28,008 nt of DNA from a virus: IMG/VR virus record IMGVR_UViG_3300017729_000022, positions 1-28,008 of that record; one strand, 5' to 3'. The notes beneath the pieces were generated by a model. The model saw only the letters and a list, made by a program, of their open reading frames with translations. It was not told the DNA's origin and did not search any database. Each line of letters begins with the position of its first letter. The stretch's first letter is position 1. Below, one piece after another: positions 5,717-28,008 of this stretch. A program made the translations under genes and the position numbers.

Positions 5717-6208
5717 TTATAAAATTAAGTCTTTATACTGCTCAATATACTCTTCTTCAGATGCTTTACCTTGTGCAGAGTTATAATACTTCTTATAATA
5801 ATGTGCTTGTCCTTCTAGGTCTTGAGGTACTTTTTTTGGTACTCGCCAATATTTAAGTCTACAATGCATGATACCATAGGCAATGTTAGATTCTAACATA
5901 TCACCTATTTCATCATCACTTGTTCCTATCATAGTAAACTTAAGCGGAACCATAGCAGCCGAAGCACACATTCTCGCCTTCGACTGCCTGTACTTGAGGT
6001 ACGATTTAATATTGTCCTGAGCAGTCGCCACTTCAACCTGCCAGAAAGATTTGGCTATACCACTTTCAATCTGTCTGATATATCGATACTGAGATTCATA
6101 TAAGCCAGTACCGAGTACGAGATCTTCAGCCTCTTCAGAGTACATACCCATGCGAGTAATTACTCTTTTAATTAACGACCTGTACTGTTGAGTCTGCTCA
6201 GGAATCAT
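5717..6208 (-). CDS. Candidate endolysin: lysozyme/transglycosylase-like peptidoglycan hydrolase
   Basis: The 163-residue protein carries EDLVLGTGLYESQYRYIRQ (about 28-46), with a Glu-Ser pair in the position of the catalytic Glu of lysozyme-like transglycosylases. IAKSFWQVEVAT (about 50-61) corresponds to the A-x-G-x-x-Q motif. The C-terminal part (YYKKYYNSAQGKASEEEYIE) matches a conserved phage family I associate with this N-terminus. There is no signal peptide, so it would need a holin or other membrane lesion. It is the last gene of the block containing many small membrane proteins, which fits a lysis module. Starts by TAATG coupling. The hydrolase call is from motif memory only. Confidence 0.5.
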   Translation of the reverse strand: MIPEQTQQYRSLIKRVITRMGMYSEEAEDLVLGTGLYESQYRYIRQIESGIAKSFWQVEVATAQDNIKSYLKYRQSKARMCASAAMVPLKFTMIGTSDDEIGDMLESNIAYGIMHCRLKYWRVPKKVPQDLEGQAHYYKKYYNSAQGKASEEEYIEQYKDLIL

Positions 6209-6442: not shown

Positions 6443-6792
6443 TACTTGCTACTCCTACTTCGAATACCAAAAGCACCTCGACTCATTTCAAGTGTTCTTT
6501 CATCATATTCTTTAGTACCTTTAATAAATTGCCTATCAAAACTATTTAAGTTTTCTTTAATCATTTTTAAAACAATGGGGTCTGTGATTTTTTTATCTTG
6601 TTTATGTAAAGCATCAGCTTTTCTAATTTTTTTTATCCTATTAAAAGTAGCTTCACGAACTTTACCATACATTTTCATATCATTTTTTGTTAGATTATCT
6701 ACAACTTTATTAAAAGGAGTATCTAACATATCAGATGGTGTTATTTTAGTTTTAGTTCTGGCTAATGATTGCCTTAACTGACCATTTGCCAT
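6442..6792 (-). CDS. Basic hypothetical protein, probably helical
   Basis: From ATG at 6792 the protein has 116 residues (MANGQLRQSLARTKTK...), basic and helical, ending GAFGIRSRSSK. The frame is open upstream to 6840, but that extension would overlap the neighbouring gene by 48 bases and adds a Cys-rich sequence unlike the rest. ATG 6792 instead forms the TAATG coupling used all over this genome. There is no membrane span. It is probably a small virion or DNA-associated protein, judged only by neighbours and charge. Confidence 0.65.
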   Translation of the reverse strand: MANGQLRQSLARTKTKITPSDMLDTPFNKVVDNLTKNDMKMYGKVREATFNRIKKIRKADALHKQDKKITDPIVLKMIKENLNSFDRQFIKGTKEYDERTLEMSRGAFGIRSRSSK

Positions 6793-7025
6793 TAGAACTT
6801 CCAGACTAGTTTGCCAATAGCAACAATAACATCCATACATTCTTTGGCTATAGCTTGTTGCTCAGACTTTGATATTTTACCATCTTTTTTAGCATCATGG
6901 TACTTTTGAGCGACTTGCTTTACTTCAGTTACAAGAGGCTTATACTTAACTGCTACTAATGTCCCTGCTGCTCCTAATATGATAACAAGCATATACGCTG
7001 CATTACTTAAAGATAACCATTCCAT
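6792..7025 (-). CDS. Small membrane protein (holin-like) with an EF-hand-like loop
   Basis: The 77-residue protein has an N-terminal membrane span, about residues 8-26 (NAAYMLVIILGAAGTLVAV). A basic helix follows, then DAKKDGKISKSE (about 46-57), which matches an EF-hand loop at positions 1, 5, 6, 8 and 12 but has Lys at 3. A final amphipathic helix follows (AIGKLVWKF). The size and single span fit small phage holins or holin-associated proteins. Calcium binding is doubtful because of the Lys. It is coupled to both neighbours by TAATG. Confidence 0.6.
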   Translation of the reverse strand: MEWLSLSNAAYMLVIILGAAGTLVAVKYKPLVTEVKQVAQKYHDAKKDGKISKSEQQAIAKECMDVIVAIGKLVWKF

Positions 7026-7240
7026 TACTTTTTCTCCTTTATCATTTCTTTTACATTCATTAATTCTGTATGAATCACATCTAATTTGTATTCAATTATT
7101 TCTTTATCTGCTTTTAATTCAACCATCTTCTCTATGTGAGATATATCTGCCTTCATAAAACCAAAAGCCATTGCCATACTTCCTGCTAAAACAATAATAG
7201 TGATAATGTGTTCTAACGATATGGTCTTATTTAGCTTCAT
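7025..7240 (-). CDS. Single-span membrane protein with coiled-coil tail
   Basis: In this 71-residue protein the membrane segment covers about residues 9-29 (LEHIITIIVLAGSMAMAFGF). A heptad-rich charged helix to the C-terminus follows (ISHIEKMVELKADKEIIEY, then MNVKEMIKEKK). This span-plus-coil layout is shared with the genes at 7928, 8196 and 8569. Inner-membrane spanins and some holins look like this, but no family is confirmed. Its ATG overlaps nothing upstream, and the downstream stop/start is TAATG at 7025. Confidence 0.6.
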   Translation of the reverse strand: MKLNKTISLEHIITIIVLAGSMAMAFGFMKADISHIEKMVELKADKEIIEYKLDVIHTELMNVKEMIKEKK

Positions 7241-7620
7241 GCCATCCTTACCTTTTTCGCAATAGACTTACTATACTTAGCGTATTGACTGCCCTTCTTA
7301 CTTGCTTCCTTCTTCTTTCTATTGGTTGCTCTTTTCTGTGCATCAGTTAAACTGGTTCTAACAGACTTAGGTAAGTATCTACCTCTTTTAGACTTAGGTT
7401 TTTTCTTATCACCTTTACTAACATAGTCCCACTTCTGCTTTGTCCATTTAGATAGCTTATTAGAAGAACTTTTACTGCCTCCGTATCTACCACCCATATC
7501 CTTATAATATTTAACTGCAAGTTGCATGGCCCTAGCAGAGTGCTTACCACCCATCTTAGCCTTAGCTCTAGCCTTTGCCCTTGCCCACTTTTTAGGATCT
7601 AATTTAGTTGCTGTAGCCAT
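7237..7620 (-). CDS. Highly basic DUF5872-like protein
   Basis: From ATG at 7620 (TAATG coupling) the protein has 127 residues. The first part (KWARAKARAKAKMGGKHSAR, then AVKYYKDMGGRYGG) is Arg/Lys/Gly-rich. From about residue 56, KLSKWTKQKWDYVSKGD, RGRYLPKSVRTSLTDAQKR and KKGSQYAKYSK follow the S-K-W-T-x-x-x-W-D ... R-Y-L-P ... K-G-x-Q-Y pattern of DUF5872, a domain known from phages and large DNA viruses. The function of that domain is not established. An upstream in-frame ATG at 7626 is less likely. The extreme charge suggests nucleic-acid binding. Confidence 0.6.
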   Translation of the reverse strand: MATATKLDPKKWARAKARAKAKMGGKHSARAMQLAVKYYKDMGGRYGGSKSSSNKLSKWTKQKWDYVSKGDKKKPKSKRGRYLPKSVRTSLTDAQKRATNRKKKEASKKGSQYAKYSKSIAKKVRMA

Positions 7621-7928
7621 TACCACTTTACCTTATCTGCCCAGTAAGCAGCACTCATCTTACCTTTAGCTATATTTCTTCTATGTCTTGCTTTAAAACT
7701 TTTACGCTTCATCTTCATTCTAGTAGACTCACCTGCTTTAGGTTTACCTGCAGTAGATGCTCCCTGCTCTCCAAAACGAATTAGTTTTACCAGTGGGCCT
7801 TCTTTGGCCATTACAATATGAGACTTCTTTGGATGTCCTGGAGTCCTCTTTGGCTTATTGAAACCAGATATATTTAATCTCTTCATTGTAGCTCTTGCTC
7901 TTTTAACTCTTGATTCTGAAGCTGTCAT
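7620..7928 (-). CDS. Basic conserved phage protein of unknown function
   Basis: The 102-residue protein contains RTPGHPKKSHIVMAKEGP, VKLIRFGEQGASTAG, then RKSFKARHRRNIAKGKMSAA and a final YWADKVKW. The K-S-F-x-A-R-H ... Y-W-A-x-K-V-K-W signature is one I associate with small conserved proteins of aquatic phages. I know no function for it. It is coupled by TAATG both to the membrane protein upstream and to the DUF5872-like gene, with which it forms a basic-protein pair. Confidence 0.65.
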   Translation of the reverse strand: MTASESRVKRARATMKRLNISGFNKPKRTPGHPKKSHIVMAKEGPLVKLIRFGEQGASTAGKPKAGESTRMKMKRKSFKARHRRNIAKGKMSAAYWADKVKW

Positions 7929-8209
7929 TAGTTATCTCTTAACCTATCTAATTCTTTTTCTATGTAATCAATGCGCTGATTCTGCCTTATATCAGCAGGT
8001 ATCTCTGCATCTTGATTCTCATACGCTTCATTCTCTATTCTTGTAATATGTTCTTCATTGATAGCTACCTGGTACTCTAAAAATGATATACGAGTATTTA
8101 ATTGACCATAGCCATATACTAATGCACCAATAAATCCTACTGCTTGTATTATCATTGGTAGTGAAATACTTAAAGAGCTATTGTCTGATATTGGTTTAGT
8201 GTTTTCCAT
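7928..8209 (-). CDS. Single-span membrane protein with coiled coil (paralogue of the gene at 8569)
   Basis: In this 93-residue protein a polar N-terminus is followed by a membrane span at about 17-35 (LPMIIQAVGFIGALVYGYG). Then come QLNTRISFLEYQV and a charged helix ending IDYIEKELDRLRDN. The stretch V-Y-G-Y-x-x-L-x-T-R-I-S-x-L-E aligns with I-Y-G-Y-x-x-I-x-T-R-I-T-x-L-E in the gene at 8569-8901, so the two are duplicates. It may be an i-spanin- or holin-like component. The 5' end overlaps the upstream gene by 14 bases. Confidence 0.6.
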   Translation of the reverse strand: MENTKPISDNSSLSISLPMIIQAVGFIGALVYGYGQLNTRISFLEYQVAINEEHITRIENEAYENQDAEIPADIRQNQRIDYIEKELDRLRDN

Positions 8210-8516
8210 TTAATCTGCTTATTACACCTTTGATCTCTGATACTTGATTATCAAGGTCATTTATTTCTTTGGTAATATTATCAAATTTTCTATCGAGCTT
8301 ATCATCTGATTGGTTCCATCTTCCTATTAGTTTAATGATCATGCCTTCCATATTCTCTAAGGTTTCAGATTGTCCTCTGTTCTCTGTCTTTAATGCCTGT
8401 AAAGCACCTGCTTGTTCATCTGCTCTTTGAGATTGCTTAAAGTATCCGTAAAAGAACGCTGCACATACAAGGCCCATTGCTCCATACTCAGCGTAATATC
8501 CCATAAATTCTTCCAT
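8196..8516 (-). CDS. Single-span membrane protein with long coiled coil
   Basis: In this 106-residue protein the span lies at about 10-26 (YGAMGLVCAAFFYGYF). It is followed by an uninterrupted charged helix with heptads (ENRGQSETLENMEGMIIKLI, then FDNITKEINDLDNQVSEIKG). The layout resembles the neighbouring paralogues, but sequence identity is limited to the Y-G-Y motif after the span. It starts inside the stop of the 17-codon minigene (TAATG). It is probably part of the membrane/lysis set; the partner is unknown. Confidence 0.6.
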   Translation of the reverse strand: MEEFMGYYAEYGAMGLVCAAFFYGYFKQSQRADEQAGALQALKTENRGQSETLENMEGMIIKLIGRWNQSDDKLDRKFDNITKEINDLDNQVSEIKGVISRLNGKH

Positions 8517-8569
8517 TATATCTTCTTTATCATCTTTAATAGTTTTATATAATTCTTTAAATCTTTCAT
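8516..8569 (-). CDS. 17-residue cationic amphipathic minigene (candidate)
   Basis: ATG at 8569 lies inside the stop of the upstream gene (TAATG), and the TAA at 8516-8518 overlaps the next ATG (TAATG). The tiny frame is therefore coupled at both ends. The peptide MKDLKNYIKLLKMIKKI puts Leu/Ile/Met on one helical face and six lysines on the other, as in membrane-active peptides. It lies among single-span membrane proteins. It might merely relay ribosomes between two genes. No homologue is known to me. Confidence 0.35.
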   Translation of the reverse strand: MKDLKNYIKLLKMIKKI

Positions 8570-8901
8570 TATTTTCGTTTCTTCTTTTTCTTGCCCCAAC
8601 TTAGTGGATTTAGATTTAGTTCGGTCTCGTACCACTCTAATTGTTCCTGCATCTTTGCAATTTTAACTTCCTCTTCTGCTATATGTTTGGAAATAAGAGT
8701 TGCAATCTCTTCGTTAGCAAGTCCAATTCCTCGTTCAAGGTTTGTAATTCTTGTTTCAATACGATAGTATCCATAAATAAGACTAGCGATAAGAACAAAC
8801 ATTTGACCAAGCCACTTAATGTTAATAGATATAACAGCGTTGTCATCGACCACAGCTCCACGATAGCTCCTTGCTGTCTTAGGTTTCTGCCCTTCACTCA
8901 C
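8569..8901 (-). CDS. Single-span membrane protein with coiled coil and poly-basic tail
   Basis: In this 110-residue protein an N-terminal cytoplasmic-looking segment is followed by a span at about 28-46 (IKWLGQMFVLIASLIYGYY). Then come RIETRITNLERGIG, a long charged helix, and a C-terminus of nine Lys/Arg in the last ten residues. It is similar to the gene at 7928-8209 through the span and first heptads. The start is GTG, overlapping the lipoprotein gene by 8 bases. Next to a lipoprotein, a span-plus-coil protein suggests an i-spanin/o-spanin pair, though the gene order is reversed from lambda Rz/Rz1. Confidence 0.55.
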   Translation of the reverse strand: MSEGQKPKTARSYRGAVVDDNAVISINIKWLGQMFVLIASLIYGYYRIETRITNLERGIGLANEEIATLISKHIAEEEVKIAKMQEQLEWYETELNLNPLSWGKKKKKRK

Positions 8902-9157
8902 TTTTCTTTCTTACATCTTCCCAGTTATGATGTCTATAGCAATAGTTCTCACCAACAAGTATTCCTCCTTGTGTAGTAGTTCTTTGATACCAATGCTGTA
9001 AACTATCCTGGTCTGTTATCACCATAAAATCTATATACAAAGTATCTTCAGGTGATATAGACCTACTATTACCACTACAAGCACTAAGAATAAATATTGT
9101 AAAGATTATTACTACAACTGATATTACAGTAATGAGATCTTTTCTATCTTCACTCAA
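8894..9157 (-). CDS. Small lipoprotein (possible o-spanin-like)
   Basis: In this 87-residue protein, residues 1-7 are charged, 8-25 are hydrophobic (DLITVISVVVIIFTIFIL), and the lipobox L-S-A-C follows with Cys at 27. This is a signal-peptidase-II lipoprotein signal. The mature part is about 60 residues with a later single Cys (NYCYRHH) and no recognisable domain. The start is TTG at 9157, overlapping the upstream stop by 8 bases; no ATG would keep the signal peptide. It could be an o-spanin or a superinfection/host-surface lipoprotein. Confidence 0.6.
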   Translation of the reverse strand: MSEDRKDLITVISVVVIIFTIFILSACSGNSRSISPEDTLYIDFMVITDQDSLQHWYQRTTTQGGILVGENYCYRHHNWEDVRKKSE

Positions 9158-9479
9158 TTTCTGATGTCCACTCAGTGCCAGATAAAGTAGTCATTATCTG
9201 TGCGTGAGAAAGTTTAGTGTATGATGAAAATACACTTGGGTCGTTATCAGGGTCATTATCACAAGCAAACTTTAGTAGTGCTTTACTACTGTCGCCTGTT
9301 TCTCCGTTGTTTAACCTAAGTGTTGCAATACCGCTTTGTATAGCATTGTCTATTAATGGATTTGTACCATCATCTTCAGTGGCAGCATCAATATCAGCTT
9401 TTGGGACGACCATGTATGCACGGTTTACCCATCTTCCTGAATAATCATCACTCCATCTGTTTGTTACTTCTTCACTCAT
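9150..9479 (-). CDS. Small hypothetical protein downstream of the LamG fibre
   Basis: The 109-residue acidic protein begins MSEEVTNRWSDDYSGRWVNR and ends HAQIMTTLSGTEWTSEIE, with no membrane span or Cys cluster. It starts 11 bases after the fibre gene, with GGAAAA upstream. I know no family for it. Its place after the fibre suggests a fibre-associated or minor virion protein, but it could equally begin the small-gene block. Confidence 0.55.
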   Translation of the reverse strand: MSEEVTNRWSDDYSGRWVNRAYMVVPKADIDAATEDDGTNPLIDNAIQSGIATLRLNNGETGDSSKALLKFACDNDPDNDPSVFSSYTKLSHAQIMTTLSGTEWTSEIE

Positions 9480-9490
9480 ATTATTTTCCT

Positions 9491-12400
9491 TTAAGGTGTT
9501 GTTGTTGAACGATTAGTATCACTTTTTGCATAGCCATTAGGTTCTGCGTTTGGTGGTGATTTTAAAGTTGCACCAGATACTGTTCCATGATTTGAGTTAC
9601 CACTTCTGTCATATATTGTAGAACTTGTATCTTTAAATCCACTTGTAGCGTCTAATAATCCACAAGCAAAATATGCTTTTAAATTGTCTGAATAGTTATC
9701 TAATAAATTAAAATGCCTACCTGCTGTATATATTGCAGAGATTTCTAAAGCACTAAGAGACTTACCCCAAAGAGCAATTCCTGCAATACCCCCTGCAAAT
9801 GACCTATCTCCACCTGTGTTATTACCTATAAATAAATTTTGACTTGAATCATCAACTGCATCTCCAGTTGTACTACCAGTTAGTGATGCAGTTACGCTTA
9901 TTCCATTGATATAAAAACTTGGATTATTAGAAGAAGAACTATTATCATAAGTAACAGCTACGTGATTCCATTCATTTAAAATAACATTCAAAGGACTACT
10001 CCAATATGGTTGATTAGTACGTCCATGACCAAATACTAATTCAACTTTACCGCTACTTTCATCTGTAACTAACCAATGCCAACCATCTGAACCATTTGTA
10101 CTTGTTGATTTATCAAATATTCTGCCTAAATCATTTTCACCATCACTTGATGGTTTTATCCAAGCAGTAAGAGTAGCACCACCAACAAATACATTATCTA
10201 TTGAGGCATCAGAACCAATATTTATTAAATCATCAGTTCCATCAAAGTCTATAAAGTTATACGCAGAGTTTACCCCTGTTAGAAAGGATTGGTCTGGCAG
10301 AACTGAGGAATAGACTAAATCAGCAGAGTCTTGATTGGTCATTGTGCCGACATTGCCTTGTAATTGCTGAAGAGAAAAGTTATCTAAAAACAATATTTCT
10401 CCAGAATTAATATCTAATCTTATATAATCATGTTGTGGACTACCTGCTTTAAATATTACTGTCTTTGATGTAAAAGATGTTTCAGTTATTGTAGCAGATG
10501 GTGTACTGCCACCATTCTCAATTACAACTAAATCAACAGAACCTGTGTTTACTTTAGCATCAAATGTTAATTTATACAGCTTACCAACTACTAAATCACT
10601 ATTTAAATCAGTAGAATCTCTAAACCATAAGTATGCTCCGTTAGTATTATCAACATAAGTAATTTTTAATGCTCCAGAATCGTTTGCTATAGTATTATTC
10701 CCATAAACAACCCAAGAATGTGTACCACTATCAAATGTACTTGCATCTGTATCCCATAACTCTGCTCCAAGAACAGGCTCATTTACATCTATGATGGCAG
10801 GGTAAGAGTCACTTAGGTCTGCTGATTGGAGGACTTCTTGTACATCAAAACTATTTAATACAAGTTTATCTCCTGTAGATACATCTGCCTCAAAGAGTCT
10901 AAAATATGAACTTGCACCATCACATAATCCATATACTGTATTTATACCTGTTGTTAATGGATTTTTTTCAAACACATTAGCAGTACAACTACCACCTGCA
11001 TTATTTATTCTATAACTTCCTGTTGTTGTACTATCTATATCTAATGTTACTTTTAATAATTTTTGAGGTATTCCAGAACCACTTGCAAAATTACCTGATG
11101 ATAATTGAGCAACAACAGCAGGACTATCGCCATCCATTGTAAAAACCATTTGGTCATTAGAAAAAGATTTAGTAGCTCCACTACTTGTCCAATCGTTAGA
11201 TGTGACTCCAGAAAATGTAGTATTACTTGCACTTGTTATTTCTGAACCACCCAACTCTTCTGAACTACTCTCAAATGCCCCCATGTCATAACCTGCAACC
11301 ATTTGCTGTACTATGTCACCTAATGCACCATTTGTGATTGTACCATCGTTTGAGTTAGAACTTGAATCTGCTATGGTAGGATATGCCTTACTTGCGTCTG
11401 AACCCATTCTCCATAGTCCTACTAACCCTGTATCAGCACTTGGATTATGAGTAATACCTTTAGAGTATTGAGCATAGATTTCTTCTGCGGATTTGGCTAC
11501 ATTGTAAAGAGAAACTGAACTTATAGAACCTTCCCAATAATTACCTGTTCTATCCCATCCTATACCTATATCATGTGAGTTAGATGCCCCACTTGTTGTA
11601 GTTCCCGATGCCCATGCTACTGCACTACCATTAATATATAATTGATAAGCACTTCCACTATAAACTAAAGCATAGTGAAACCAACTTCCTGCACTAATAA
11701 CACCTGTTGCAGTTTGACCAACAGCACTTCCATTGTAGGTGTAAACAACACCATTTGCACCTACACTCAAATTATAATCAGTAACAGTACCACTTGCTTG
11801 TCTTTTTGAGATTATAGTTTTATAATTTGCTAACACATCTAATTTTGCCCACGCAGAAATAGTGTGTACATTTGTACCAAAACTTAATGCTGAGTTATTT
11901 GATATCTCTATTCTATCATTACTACTACTAAAATCCACTACAGAAAATCTGTTGTCTCTCATGGGAGTAAATCTGCTCTTTGCCATCTGTGAAATGGTTT
12001 GAGCATCGAGTGCTGTTTTGTAAAGACTCACATTGGATATTCCCCCACCAAATGCTCTATCTGCACTATCTCTTGCACCTATTGTAAATGATACATCATC
12101 GTTATCAAGAGTACCTGTTACAGATTCAGAAACATCTAATTTTCCATTTATATAGACTTTAACATTTGCACCATCATAACTCGAACAAATATGAGTCCAA
12201 ACACCAACAGGACAAGCAGAGCCTACAGTTGAGGTATCAGATGTTCCGAGGTTTACACTACTAACATATCCGTTACTATTTGTAATTTCAATCCAATAAT
12301 TTCTATTTGTACCATCATCTCTACCAAATAAAAATTGTGTTGCACTTGTAATAGCTGTTAGGTTTACCCAACCCATCAAAGTATAAGATGTTGTCATATC

Positions 12401-13165
12401 AAAAGATGTGTCATCTCCACAATTAACAAGAGTATTGCTACTGTCAAAATCAGTATAGAAGTCCTGTCTTGCGATTGAGGTATCGCTTTCTGGTAGTACC
12501 TTATCCCCTGCTCTGAGCCATAGTTTAAGGTTGGAAGTTCTATCTGTAGCGTAAGTTGATGCTTTGGAGAAATCAACTGGCTTAGAGGCAATCTTTGCGA
12601 CATCTGAGGCACTTAAAGCAGTATCCCAGACTGCAACTTCGTCAATGAGTCCATCCCAATAAGCACCACCATTTAATGCACTTCCTACTAATATATCTGT
12701 TGTTGCATTATGAATTGCATCAACACTTGCATCAGATGGACTTGTTATAGAAGTATCAGTACCATTTACATATAACTTAAATGCACCTGCATTAAATGTA
12801 AGAACAAAATGATTCCAACTATCAATATTAGAAATAGCACTTGATGAAATTACTTCACTAATACCACTCCCTGTTTTACTAATACTAAATGTTATTTTTT
12901 CATCTGAGTTAAAAAATATTCTGAACGCTCTTTGGTTACTATTATAATCATATTGACTTGTTATATATTGATTAGATGATAATCCAGAACTATCATTTTT
13001 TGCCCAAAAAGACAAAGAAATTTGAGCTGAAAGTTCAAGTGAAGTATTCCCACAATTTAAATAATCATTAGAACCATCGAAATTGAAGGAAAAGTCGTTA
13101 GGGAAACCAGTTAGTGGCTGACCTGATAACAGGTTGCCAAGACCGAGTCCCATGCCTAAACGCAT
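9491..13165 (-). CDS. Large LamG-domain tail fibre / receptor-binding protein
   Basis: The 1224-residue protein has four concanavalin/LamG-type beta-sandwich domains at about 24-195, 236-395, 408-568 and 970-1150. Each opens like FDGSNDYLNCG and closes like IDEVAVWDTALSASDV. Between the third and fourth are two carbohydrate-binding-module-like segments (about 640-780 and 798-936), ending in L-x-S-F-D-x-Q-x and L-D-N-F-S-L-Q-x. The phrase D-S-S-S-N-S-N-D-G-T, about 600-609, recurs as D-R-S-G-N-S-N-H-G-T at 1186-1195. The start MRLGMGLGLGNLLSG is typical of this protein class. It probably binds host surface glycans. The start lies one base past the upstream stop. Confidence 0.8.
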   Translation of the reverse strand: MRLGMGLGLGNLLSGQPLTGFPNDFSFNFDGSNDYLNCGNTSLELSAQISLSFWAKNDSSGLSSNQYITSQYDYNSNQRAFRIFFNSDEKITFSISKTGSGISEVISSSAISNIDSWNHFVLTFNAGAFKLYVNGTDTSITSPSDASVDAIHNATTDILVGSALNGGAYWDGLIDEVAVWDTALSASDVAKIASKPVDFSKASTYATDRTSNLKLWLRAGDKVLPESDTSIARQDFYTDFDSSNTLVNCGDDTSFDMTTSYTLMGWVNLTAITSATQFLFGRDDGTNRNYWIEITNSNGYVSSVNLGTSDTSTVGSACPVGVWTHICSSYDGANVKVYINGKLDVSESVTGTLDNDDVSFTIGARDSADRAFGGGISNVSLYKTALDAQTISQMAKSRFTPMRDNRFSVVDFSSSNDRIEISNNSALSFGTNVHTISAWAKLDVLANYKTIISKRQASGTVTDYNLSVGANGVVYTYNGSAVGQTATGVISAGSWFHYALVYSGSAYQLYINGSAVAWASGTTTSGASNSHDIGIGWDRTGNYWEGSISSVSLYNVAKSAEEIYAQYSKGITHNPSADTGLVGLWRMGSDASKAYPTIADSSSNSNDGTITNGALGDIVQQMVAGYDMGAFESSSEELGGSEITSASNTTFSGVTSNDWTSSGATKSFSNDQMVFTMDGDSPAVVAQLSSGNFASGSGIPQKLLKVTLDIDSTTTGSYRINNAGGSCTANVFEKNPLTTGINTVYGLCDGASSYFRLFEADVSTGDKLVLNSFDVQEVLQSADLSDSYPAIIDVNEPVLGAELWDTDASTFDSGTHSWVVYGNNTIANDSGALKITYVDNTNGAYLWFRDSTDLNSDLVVGKLYKLTFDAKVNTGSVDLVVIENGGSTPSATITETSFTSKTVIFKAGSPQHDYIRLDINSGEILFLDNFSLQQLQGNVGTMTNQDSADLVYSSVLPDQSFLTGVNSAYNFIDFDGTDDLINIGSDASIDNVFVGGATLTAWIKPSSDGENDLGRIFDKSTSTNGSDGWHWLVTDESSGKVELVFGHGRTNQPYWSSPLNVILNEWNHVAVTYDNSSSSNNPSFYINGISVTASLTGSTTGDAVDDSSQNLFIGNNTGGDRSFAGGIAGIALWGKSLSALEISAIYTAGRHFNLLDNYSDNLKAYFACGLLDATSGFKDTSSTIYDRSGNSNHGTVSGATLKSPPNAEPNGYAKSDTNRSTTTP

Positions 13166-24848: not shown

Positions 24849-25664
24849 TTAAAATCCAGAAGTAACCTCCATTAAGGCTTTCTTACGAACTTCAGGCGAT
24901 AAATTGCTCCACTGCTCAGGACTTAGATTATCATAATCTGTGTCCGACTCGTTTCCTGTACTAACATTAGACAGTGTGGTCGGTATCTTGGTTGCTTCCG
25001 TTGCTTTTTTCGCTTTATCTATCTCTGGGTTCGTAACATCCTTAACGGGTTTACTTTGGATGTTGTAAACATTATAGGCATCCTCTATAAAGGTGATGCC
25101 CCTTTCATCGCCAAAAGCAGCAATCTTGGCTAACTCTTCTTGACCTAACTCAGGATGTTTCTCAATGAAATCATTCATCATTGCATCCATAGCACTATTA
25201 TACTCTGTCTCAGCTTTCTTCGCTTCTTCAGCTTGGAACCTCTGGTCTATCATATCTTGTGCTTTTTTAGCAGCCATAAACTCAATGTACTCTTTCTGCT
25301 TTGCAGGATCGTATTCGTCAAACTCAGGGACTGCTTCTGGTTCCTCTTTAGGTTCCATAGAATCCTTTAGTTCTTCGACCATCTTGCGAAGATCTCCAAG
25401 TTCATTAGTTTGTCTGCCATTTAGGCTTTGTAGGTTAGAATAAGACTTATCCCTTTCTTCAGCAAACTTCAAAAGCTCGTCCACAGAGTCAAAGCTCTGA
25501 TCTCCTATTTGTAGCTTAAGTTCTTCTGTTTCTGGGGTCTCGGTTGATTCTGCTTCAACCTCTGTCTCGTCATTGGTCGGGGATTCTTCTACTTCAGAGT
25601 CGCTATACTCTTCACCAGACATTTCCTTTTCCTCATCAATATATTGAAACTTCGATTCACTCAT
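24849..25664 (-). CDS. Capsid scaffolding protein
   Basis: The 271-residue protein has an acidic N-terminus (ESPTNDETEVEAESTETPET) and a coiled-coil middle (about 85-165, with KKAQDMIDQRFQAEEAKKAE). A mixed C-terminal half ends DNLSPEQWSNLSPEVRKKA. Size, acidity, coiled coil and place between portal and capsid genes are typical of scaffolds that are lost on maturation. Coupled to the portal by TAATG. Evidence is by position and composition, with no sequence family assigned. Confidence 0.75.
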   Translation of the reverse strand: MSESKFQYIDEEKEMSGEEYSDSEVEESPTNDETEVEAESTETPETEELKLQIGDQSFDSVDELLKFAEERDKSYSNLQSLNGRQTNELGDLRKMVEELKDSMEPKEEPEAVPEFDEYDPAKQKEYIEFMAAKKAQDMIDQRFQAEEAKKAETEYNSAMDAMMNDFIEKHPELGQEELAKIAAFGDERGITFIEDAYNVYNIQSKPVKDVTNPEIDKAKKATEATKIPTTLSNVSTGNESDTDYDNLSPEQWSNLSPEVRKKALMEVTSGF

Positions 25665-27529
25665 TATTGCATTACTCCTTCTCCACTAGATTGTGGGGGT
25701 TTTTTTTGTTGTTGTTGTTGTGACTGGACTTGAGCTTGGCGTTCTTGCTCAAATTTCTCCAGTATCTCATCGGATGCTTCCATGTCGGATAGTTCAACGA
25801 AAAGTGGGAATAAACTAGCGTACCCATTTCGTACTAATTCCCCAACTTGGTTAGCCATTAACGCTCTCATCGTTGGAGTATTTTGACCCTGGTCTAAGAC
25901 CACATCAAACTCCATTGTTGAGAAGTTGTCCAAAAATTTGCTGATGATCTGATTGACTTCTGCCTGTTCTTCAGGTTCCACCTTATCAAATTCAGCTCCA
26001 ATAATTCTTTGTATCTTATCAACAGAATAATACTGCTGCATATTAGACACTGCCATTTCTAGTGTATTCTTCTTACAAGTGTCTAAGTTCTCCATCTGCT
26101 CCATTAAGGTATTCATACCTTGACGAATCCTAGTCTGTACAGCAAGTCCTGACTCTGTAGAAGAGGTGGCCCTACCCATCATTGGGTCTGTAGCACCACT
26201 GATCTCTTTTGCATCAAAGTCACTTCTCTGTTCAAACGAAGCAATCGTTGGTACAAGTGCTGTATGCTGATTAGACCATTGACTCATAAAATCAGATATT
26301 CTGCCCTTAAATCCAGGTATGCCTATCCATTCTCCATTCGCTGAAGCTCTATTCATCTGGTCTGCAGTAACCTTGTTTCCTGTGAAGATACCACCACCCT
26401 TTGGAGAGCGATTAATAATATCTAAGGCTTGTGACCTACGCTTATTCTTCTCTCTTTGAGGGTCTTTTAAATTCTCTACCAATCCAAAAGTTTCTACATT
26501 GTCACCATAATCTTCAAAGGTATAGAAGAATGGTATTAATGGAAACTGATTATGTCTATATGGATTTGGTGTTTTTTCCTGTAAGACCCTTGCACCTGCA
26601 AATACAGTTACATAGGTCTTAGGAACGCTTTTAGAAACCACATTTAACTCTACAGGAGCAACTTCCATCTCAGGTCTTTCCATAATACTTCTAATCGCTT
26701 CATTGGCTTTACGCTTGGTCTTAAAACCTTCCTGAGAAAACCGTCCTGTTTGTGGATTAACTAAATAAAATTCTTTTTCGTACTCTCTTTCCCATAACTC
26801 AATAATTCTTATCTTCTTACGATGTGAATCCATATTATAGGCTTCCATGCTTTTAAAACCGTAGTTAGGGTCTACATTCTTATATTTGTCGCCTAACTGT
26901 ATGCCAGTTAAAGATTCTTCACCAATTAAAGACTCTTGTATATCTTCAGCGTTTTTAACATCCCTCAGTGCATCTGGAAACATATCTTTTGCTTTAGAGA
27001 TAGATAATAGTTTAGTACGAGCTAATCTACCCCACTGTGAACAATCAGGAGTAGTAGCCTCTGGATCCATTAATACATTGGCCCACGACTCTCTTCTGAT
27101 ATTTATCTTACTATCAAAGTATTCGCCTGCTTCTACTGATAGGTCTACCCATCCTCTACCTGTAATTACACCGTCCTTAAAAACACGACTAAATACATTA
27201 TGTAAAGACTGGCTTTTATCTAAATGATATAAAAGCGAAGTAATTAACTTAGCTTCATTATCATCGTTCATTTCCACGGGTCTGGCACGGTATGATGTTC
27301 TGCCTTGCCTTTCAATACCAGTTACTAGGTTCACTTTCGGAAGGATGATGTTGAGCTGAAGGGGAGGACGTCCCTCTGCTCTTAGCTTTGATATATCAGC
27401 ATTATCCCATTGTCCAGTTCCGTACCCACCCGTATAAAAATACATAGATTCTCTTGCAGATTGCATAAATGTCCTATTACTGCTCTGCATTGCTTGAAAT
27501 ACTTCGTGTAAATATGATAAATCGCTCAT
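25664..27529 (-). CDS. Portal protein, P22 type
   Basis: The protein has 621 residues from ATG at 27529. That start overlaps the terminase stop as ATGA, and I prefer it to an in-frame TTG at 27541. Core features, numbered from that start: YFYTGGYGTGQWDN near residue 25, RPPLQLNIILPKVNLVTGIE near 50, GRGWVDLSVEAGEYFDSKIN near 120, ELWEREYEKEFYLVNPQTGR near 240, and NPYRHNQFPLIPFFY near 320. These follow the P22-like portal family. The C-terminus is Gln-rich (QSQQQQQKK). It forms the dodecameric DNA gate at the vertex and receives the adaptor at 22454-23332. Confidence 0.85.
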   Translation of the reverse strand: MSDLSYLHEVFQAMQSSNRTFMQSARESMYFYTGGYGTGQWDNADISKLRAEGRPPLQLNIILPKVNLVTGIERQGRTSYRARPVEMNDDNEAKLITSLLYHLDKSQSLHNVFSRVFKDGVITGRGWVDLSVEAGEYFDSKINIRRESWANVLMDPEATTPDCSQWGRLARTKLLSISKAKDMFPDALRDVKNAEDIQESLIGEESLTGIQLGDKYKNVDPNYGFKSMEAYNMDSHRKKIRIIELWEREYEKEFYLVNPQTGRFSQEGFKTKRKANEAIRSIMERPEMEVAPVELNVVSKSVPKTYVTVFAGARVLQEKTPNPYRHNQFPLIPFFYTFEDYGDNVETFGLVENLKDPQREKNKRRSQALDIINRSPKGGGIFTGNKVTADQMNRASANGEWIGIPGFKGRISDFMSQWSNQHTALVPTIASFEQRSDFDAKEISGATDPMMGRATSSTESGLAVQTRIRQGMNTLMEQMENLDTCKKNTLEMAVSNMQQYYSVDKIQRIIGAEFDKVEPEEQAEVNQIISKFLDNFSTMEFDVVLDQGQNTPTMRALMANQVGELVRNGYASLFPLFVELSDMEASDEILEKFEQERQAQVQSQQQQQKKPPQSSGEGVMQ

Positions 27530-28008
27530 GTACCCATCCAACTTGTTGTGCGTTTAAAGAAACTCGGTGTTTTGTACGAGCTTCTGCGTTTCGGTTTATT
27601 TGAACCTTCTACCGCATGAACTAAATATCTAACGCAGTCCATAGCGTGGTCATTCTTTTTCACAGGCTCTTCTGGTGCGCTTTTCTCGCTATGCCCATGT
27701 TTTAATTCTTTCCATTTGTAATCCATGATCTCGTCTAAGAGAAATCCCATATTCCTAACATCAAAGAACTTTAATTGACAGTGACCGTTCTTATCAGTCG
27801 TTAAATAGCGTGCTACCCTGTCAAATCCTGCTCTTTTATCGTTATTGGCTCTCTCCCATTCAATGCCATACTCTTCCCACTCATCGGCAATAGAGTAACC
27901 GTCCCTCTCTGTTCTATTAATAGACGGGTCGGCAATAAACTCATAGTCCATACCAGTCTCTAACCTATCTTCTACCATCGGTACTATCTCATCTATCCTC
28001 ATCTCATC
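27526..28008 (-). CDS. terL: Large terminase subunit, C-terminal nuclease part, cut by the right window edge
   Basis: About 160 residues are visible and the frame remains open at 28008, so the ATPase half lies outside the window. YEFIADPSINRTERDG carries the catalytic-type Asp of the terminase nuclease. WERANNDKRAGFDRVARYL and the final KKNDHAMDCVRYLVHAVEG (D-H-A-x-D-x-x-R-Y) are the standard Terminase_6C signature. It packages DNA through the portal, whose gene follows in an ATGA overlap. Confidence 0.85.
   Translation of the reverse strand, partial: DEMRIDEIVPMVEDRLETGMDYEFIADPSINRTERDGYSIADEWEEYGIEWERANNDKRAGFDRVARYLTTDKNGHCQLKFFDVRNMGFLLDEIMDYKWKELKHGHSEKSAPEEPVKKNDHAMDCVRYLVHAVEGSNKPKRRSSYKTPSFFKRTTSWMGT

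Follow-up and report, generated by a model that had tools for sequence, protein, structure and literature searches.

A conserved pair of single-span membrane proteins in a probable holin-type lysis cassette of uncultured marine tailed phages

We analyzed the 28,008-base virus record IMGVR_UViG_3300017729_000022 (positions 1 to 28,008; hereafter the window), a tailed-phage fragment whose portal belongs to phrog_156, and focused on a run of small membrane-protein genes on its minus strand. We read this run as probably being a holin-type lysis cassette, built from several single-span proteins rather than from one multi-span holin. The gene set, the duplication of one gene (A and A'), the pairing of A with a second gene, B, and the association of that pair with three unrelated endolysin families are all borne out by comparing sequences. 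We find the core pair in no fewer than 81 independent viral contigs from the sea, whose structural genes differ, and the cassette of the window comprises five one-span proteins and a lipoprotein, in a host that is probably Gram-negative. The arrangement is real and conserved, and is most likely a lysis cassette of the holin type with an unusual number of single-span proteins. The cassette genes and the putative endolysin gene are as follows.

8894-9157, minus strand: LP, a lipoprotein with lipobox LSAC and a mature domain of about 60 residues
8569-8901, minus strand: A, a one-span protein of 110 residues, upstream of B, with a basic C-terminal tail (LNPLSWGKKKKKRK)
8196-8516, minus strand: B, a one-span protein of 106 residues whose span has a glycine zipper, with a conserved coiled coil; the main holin candidate
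7928-8209, minus strand: A', a one-span protein of 93 residues, a paralogue of A whose N-terminus is shorter and which lacks the basic tail; an optional gene among relatives
7620-7928, minus strand: K1, a basic protein of phrog_7595 that weakly resembles part of a head/DNA-pilot family
7237-7626, minus strand: K2, a basic protein of phrog_14910
7025-7240, minus strand: C, a one-span protein of 71 residues, a possible remote relative of A and A'
6792-7025, minus strand: D, a one-span protein with an N-out charge pattern and an amphipathic helix, in relatives often directly before M15 or F
5717-6208, minus strand: F, a putative endolysin, lytic-transglycosylase-like, of phrog_3108 (unknown function), without a signal sequence

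A preliminary description of this DNA had singled out the four small genes at 7025, 7928, 8196, and 8569 as a tandem set next to a lipobox protein. All four exist on the minus strand with one predicted span each, and the lipoprotein, LP, does lie just upstream. The run itself is thus real, except that D had been missed and that K1 and K2 are interposed. No gene of the window with two or more clear spans was found.

To delimit the conserved core, scans with K1, A, and B were carried out and yielded 235 loci, with longer pieces fetched for 15 contigs; merging the loci that shared exact 200-base stretches left 81 independent contigs with both A and B. A lies directly before B in 71 of these, and 8 more have the one-span protein X30 between the two (79/81 together). 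A', C, D, and LP are optional members near the pair, and in some relatives c22, a protein without a span, takes the place of D. The large upstream gene belongs to family c18 or c23, and the A-B pair is kept beside either. Within 50,697 phage records, no match was obtained for A, B, D, X30, or a divergent B (A, B, and D were searched with tblastn), which suggests that annotation has so far missed the lysis machinery of a common group of ocean phages. An attempt to identify the host from cellular genomes returned two matches only, short contigs in a Maricaulis and a Pacearchaeota metagenome-assembled genome, which are probably viral contigs binned by chance and were set aside.

Some relatives carry further small genes near the pair. 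In G009 (L275, directly after B), L150, L159, and L354, these encode proteins in which a heptad helix precedes a C-terminal span, a layout resembling XhlA, and lie either immediately after B or in the interval from B to the enzyme gene; an XhlA-like identity was not adopted, as they have no Pfam match. Upstream of A-B, several relatives encode a protein of family c63 (L241:10302-10847 in G001; also G007 and G013) that starts with GNSLAEFAVTMAIMATLATTAAPAF, like the N-terminus of a type IV pilin, and matches N_methyl below the cut-off (E 0.02).

The lysis reading draws on the enzymes encoded downstream. Across the 69 contigs with at least 2.5 kb downstream of A-B, an endolysin gene follows within 2 kb on the same strand in 38, encoding an M15 peptidase in 20, a GH108 muramidase in 10, and F in 8. 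The gaps range from 140 to 1988 bases, and no contig among the 69 has two endolysin types near A-B. The M15 enzymes match PF13539 above the cut-off and a PHROG endolysin (7e-45), and the GH108 enzymes match PF05838 (E 8e-26) and a PHROG endolysin (1e-46). Reverse scans started from the enzymes, without reference to A or B. When started from M15, they found both A and B upstream in 22 of 54 nonredundant loci having 1.5 kb of upstream sequence, and one of the two alone in none; when started from F, they found B upstream in 14 of 44 nonredundant loci, and M15 was found in none of 80 F loci. All three enzyme types lack a regular signal sequence, so that each would need a membrane partner. By context, a holin is a small membrane protein encoded beside an endolysin without an export signal, and the cassette fits this description, with F of the window some 2 kb downstream of B. 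The preliminary description had suggested a lysis or envelope function, with a holin/antiholin series among its options, and had regarded homologues located away from lysis genes as evidence to the contrary. The endolysin association supports that suggestion, the homologues lying mostly within 2 kb of an endolysin gene (38 of 69 deduplicated contigs). With three unrelated endolysins beside the same pair, nature also provides a clean experiment for identifying the general component that forms the hole.

The enzyme of the window is of the third type, F. Residues E38, S39, A52, Q57, E59, R74, R117, and others are invariant among 45 aligned sequences, and by inspection the E-S pair followed by Q appears similar to the ES...Q motifs of lytic transglycosylases. 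The AlphaFold2 model of F (predicted local distance difference test [pLDDT], 90; predicted template modelling score, 0.87) was compared with the PDB using Foldseek, and the nine best matches were MltE or the phiKZ lytic transglycosylase, enzymes of the lysozyme fold (template modelling score 0.46-0.47, E 0.38-1.5), values that make the resemblance suggestive only. Relatives of phrog_3108 occur in 116 phage records, mostly of Vibrio phages, and those inspected lie beside holin genes or are annotated as endolysin. In the Vibrio phages PhiPS02 and K303 the relative of F comes after an annotated holin, the relative in Vibrio phage 10N.237.312.C11_PE002A touches a gene for a protein with one span and a heptad helix, and a Melvirus relative is annotated as endolysin. 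We therefore propose phrog_3108 as a candidate for re-annotation as endolysin, and F would presumably cleave murein. At the nearly invariant position 48, F of the window has Glu where its relatives have Gly (QIESG versus QIGSG).

That the membrane proteins form one family of four paralogues sharing a heptad-rich helix, as had been supposed, is not supported. The duplication of A (8569) and A' (7928) holds firmly: both contain the motif YGYxx(I/L)xTRIxxLE to the letter, A' is the only second match of A against its own record (tblastn E 6.7e-8), both match phrog_20984, and their family profiles align with 97.7% probability in hhalign (E 1.5e-12). Among relatives, A' directly follows B in 19 cases. 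C is a borderline case, at best a remote relative of A and A', since hhalign against their profiles gives 17% and the A profile scores 18.1 bits on the C of the window compared with at most 16.6 among 3,900 layout-preserving shuffles, most other C members scoring lower. No relationship of B or D to A/A' was found in the tests run on them, and profile comparison thus led us to reject common paralogy of the four span genes beyond A and A'. The supposed helix fared similarly. None of 5,000 shuffles of B had as strong a heptad periodicity, and for the B family 3 of 10,000 did; the corresponding values are 73 of 5,000 for D and 7 of 10,000 for the D family. In the same test no significant periodicity was found for A, A', or C, so that the claim stands for B (8196) and is not upheld for these three.

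B combines its coiled coil with an acidic N-terminus and a span in which Gly11 is conserved in 100% of members and small residues occupy positions 14 (100%) and 17 (94%). In 99-100% of the members of B, D, and X30 the N-terminal flank of the span is not more positive than the C-terminal flank (more positive in 1% of B members and 0% of D and X30 members), a pattern that, by the positive-inside rule, would leave the N-terminus outside and the coiled coil cytoplasmic, unlike the arrangement of a spanin. B is thus predicted to be an N-out/C-in protein with a glycine-zipper span. A has basic residues before its span in addition to the basic C-terminal tail, and the charges flanking the spans of A and C are balanced. 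Matches of B to coiled-coil families in Pfam were all below the cut-off and were treated as composition; solved structures sought by sequence for B or F gave weak matches only, either to coiled-coil proteins or to unrelated ones. A PHROG annotated as involved in bacteriocin production or immunity is matched by one B member (4e-5).

There is a precedent for such a protein in lysis: LysF1b of mycobacteriophages has one span, is predicted to be N-out/C-in, and is needed together with LysF1a for efficient lysis (PMC13056207). From this precedent and the charge pattern of B, we infer hole formation, topology, and a division of labour as follows. A and B would form the conserved core, with B as the probable hole-forming holin, its short N-terminus crossing the membrane, its glycine-zipper span packing into oligomers, and its coiled coil staying in the cytoplasm. 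A, together with its copy A' and perhaps C, may act as a partner that tunes or completes the assembly of B, and D would be a further single-span lysis protein. Once the assembly triggers, the signal-less F would gain access to the wall. LP may be an accessory envelope lipoprotein.

The location of the cassette agrees with this proposal. On the minus strand, which holds all main genes of the window, the order is portal, capsid and tail region genes, LamG-like tail fibre, cassette, F, and replication-type genes (roles other than that of the portal were assigned partly by inspection). The cassette thus comes after the tail-fibre gene, the same placement as that of the holins in T7 and T4. From T to D, neighboring genes overlap or are separated by gaps within about 50 bases, so that the run looks like one transcription unit. 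K1 and K2, very basic small proteins, are inserted inside the cassette, and K1 is widespread in marine phages, mostly without A or B. The upstream landmarks are listed below; no convincing family match was found for T in PHROG and Pfam searches.

25664-27541, minus strand: portal, phrog_156
9491-13165, minus strand: large LamG-like protein, read as the tail fibre partly by inspection
9150-9479, minus strand: T, a small gene between the tail-fibre gene and the cassette, of a family found upstream of LP/A in relatives

Several observations weigh against reading the run as a holin-type cassette. None of the three endolysins was recognized near A-B in 31 of the 69 contigs, where another type may have gone unrecognized, and G009, G011, and G016 carry their only recognized endolysin (M15) about 14-28 kb from the pair. 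In G001 (IMGVR_UViG_3300030098_002069; 73 kb), F and M15 occur together, each next to an A-B cassette of its own; with two such cassettes and two portals, this record may be a joined assembly of two phages. By E-value alone (0.4), the fold matches of F are not significant. The span of B is only weakly hydrophobic in the window (1.12), and 32 of 41 B members match phrog_739, an 'Rz-like spanin' (best 7e-7; B against phrog_739, E 5.6e-6). Finally, the charge method is coarse: the flanks of lambda Rz, T7 18.5, and T4 T tie, so that known N-in proteins are not clearly separated.

A bolder version of the holin reading would make A and B an obligate hetero-oligomeric holin, with A possibly N-in and B N-out, and A' its antiholin. 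The pair would then be a lysis engine that is portable, does not depend on the kind of endolysin, and is shared by many uncultured marine phages, unlike the known holins made of a single polypeptide. We hold this version to be doubtful.

An expanded or two-component spanin, which the preliminary description had listed first among its options, is unlikely. Here A, with A' and perhaps B, would be inner-membrane i-spanins with periplasmic coiled coils and LP the outer-membrane o-spanin, the holin being one of the remaining spans or lying elsewhere. LP has a lipobox and its gene overlaps A by 8 bases, a layout resembling an o-spanin/i-spanin pair; the basic residues before the span of A, its basic tail, and the phrog_739 matches of B point the same way. 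The mature domain of LP contains an invariant D..DS..H..C..H..E.V pattern with a conserved Cys and is modelled as beta-rich with low confidence (pLDDT 70), with no PDB match to its fold, and beta-type o-spanins without proline-rich regions do exist in the T4 family (PMC6139136). However, among the 43 A-B contigs that extend 2 kb to either side, LP is present in 12 and missing from 31, of which just 2 have another lipobox gene. This patchy occurrence weakens an LP-A spanin pair as the general function and does not support the lipoprotein as an obligate partner of the span proteins. LP is not rich in proline and has no match among o-spanin families, and neither A nor B shows profile similarity to lambda Rz or T7 18.5. 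The charges of B, D, and X30 are opposite to those of N-in i-spanins and weaken the multi-component spanin option, although A may still have such a role.

Less probable still is an envelope module unrelated to lysis timing, acting in superinfection exclusion or envelope remodelling and sharing a late operon with the endolysin. The contigs without a recognized endolysin nearby and the three genomes with a distant one would fit such a module, as would the variable optional genes (LP, X30, C, D, K1, K2, and the pilin-like c63), which are typical of accessory regions; it leaves unaccounted for the position that A-B keeps beside three unrelated endolysins and the need of enzymes without signal sequences for a membrane partner. 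Virion or DNA-ejection proteins, namely small membrane or coiled-coil structural proteins between tail fibre and packaging genes, are very improbable: the position after the tail-fibre gene, among virion-like genes, and the partial match of K1 to a head/DNA-pilot family would suit them, but A-B tracks endolysins and not one structural gene, its upstream family being either c18 or c23.

Among known systems, the Rz/Rz1 spanins share with the cassette one span plus a coiled coil and a neighboring small lipoprotein, whereas B and D have N-out charges, the lipoprotein is usually absent, and profile comparison with lambda Rz or T7 18.5 gives no match. The T4 class III holin T also has one span and a large soluble domain and is encoded after tail-fibre genes, but it is an N-in/C-out protein of 218 residues, compared with about 77-106 residues and N-out charges for B, D, and X30, which by charge prediction only lack the N-in/C-out topology with a large periplasmic domain of class III holins. 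BhlA/UviB holin-like proteins consist of a short N-terminus, one span, and a charged helix; B is alike in layout, with no Pfam match to the BhlA holin family. The A profile also finds a one-span protein of uncultured origin (L045 8673-9029, E 4e-4) that is related to proteins of the Pelagibacter phages HTVC027P (gp15), HTVC121P (gp53), and HTVC031P (gp49). In HTVC027P, gp15 lies two genes before peptidase M15; in HTVC121P, gp53 lies upstream of the gene for DNA maturase B, which is followed by a lysozyme gene. The resemblance of these proteins to A is weak, by inspection mainly in the N-terminal half, and no B partner was detected beside them, so that we treat it as a lead and not as proof.

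The closest likeness in layout is to LysF1b of mycobacteriophages (PMC13056207) and to holin-like proteins with one span in Gordonia phages (PMC9671378), all of which infect Gram-positive hosts. Like the proteins of the cassette, these are small, have one N-terminal span, are predicted to be N-out/C-in, and are encoded in arrays of membrane-protein genes beside an endolysin; judged by the indirect charge method, B, D, and X30 share the single N-terminal span and the N-out/C-in charges of LysF1b. The Gordonia proteins have no predicted coiled coils and their cassette no duplicated genes (PMC9671378), whereas the cassette described here has a strong coiled coil in B and the duplicates A and A'.

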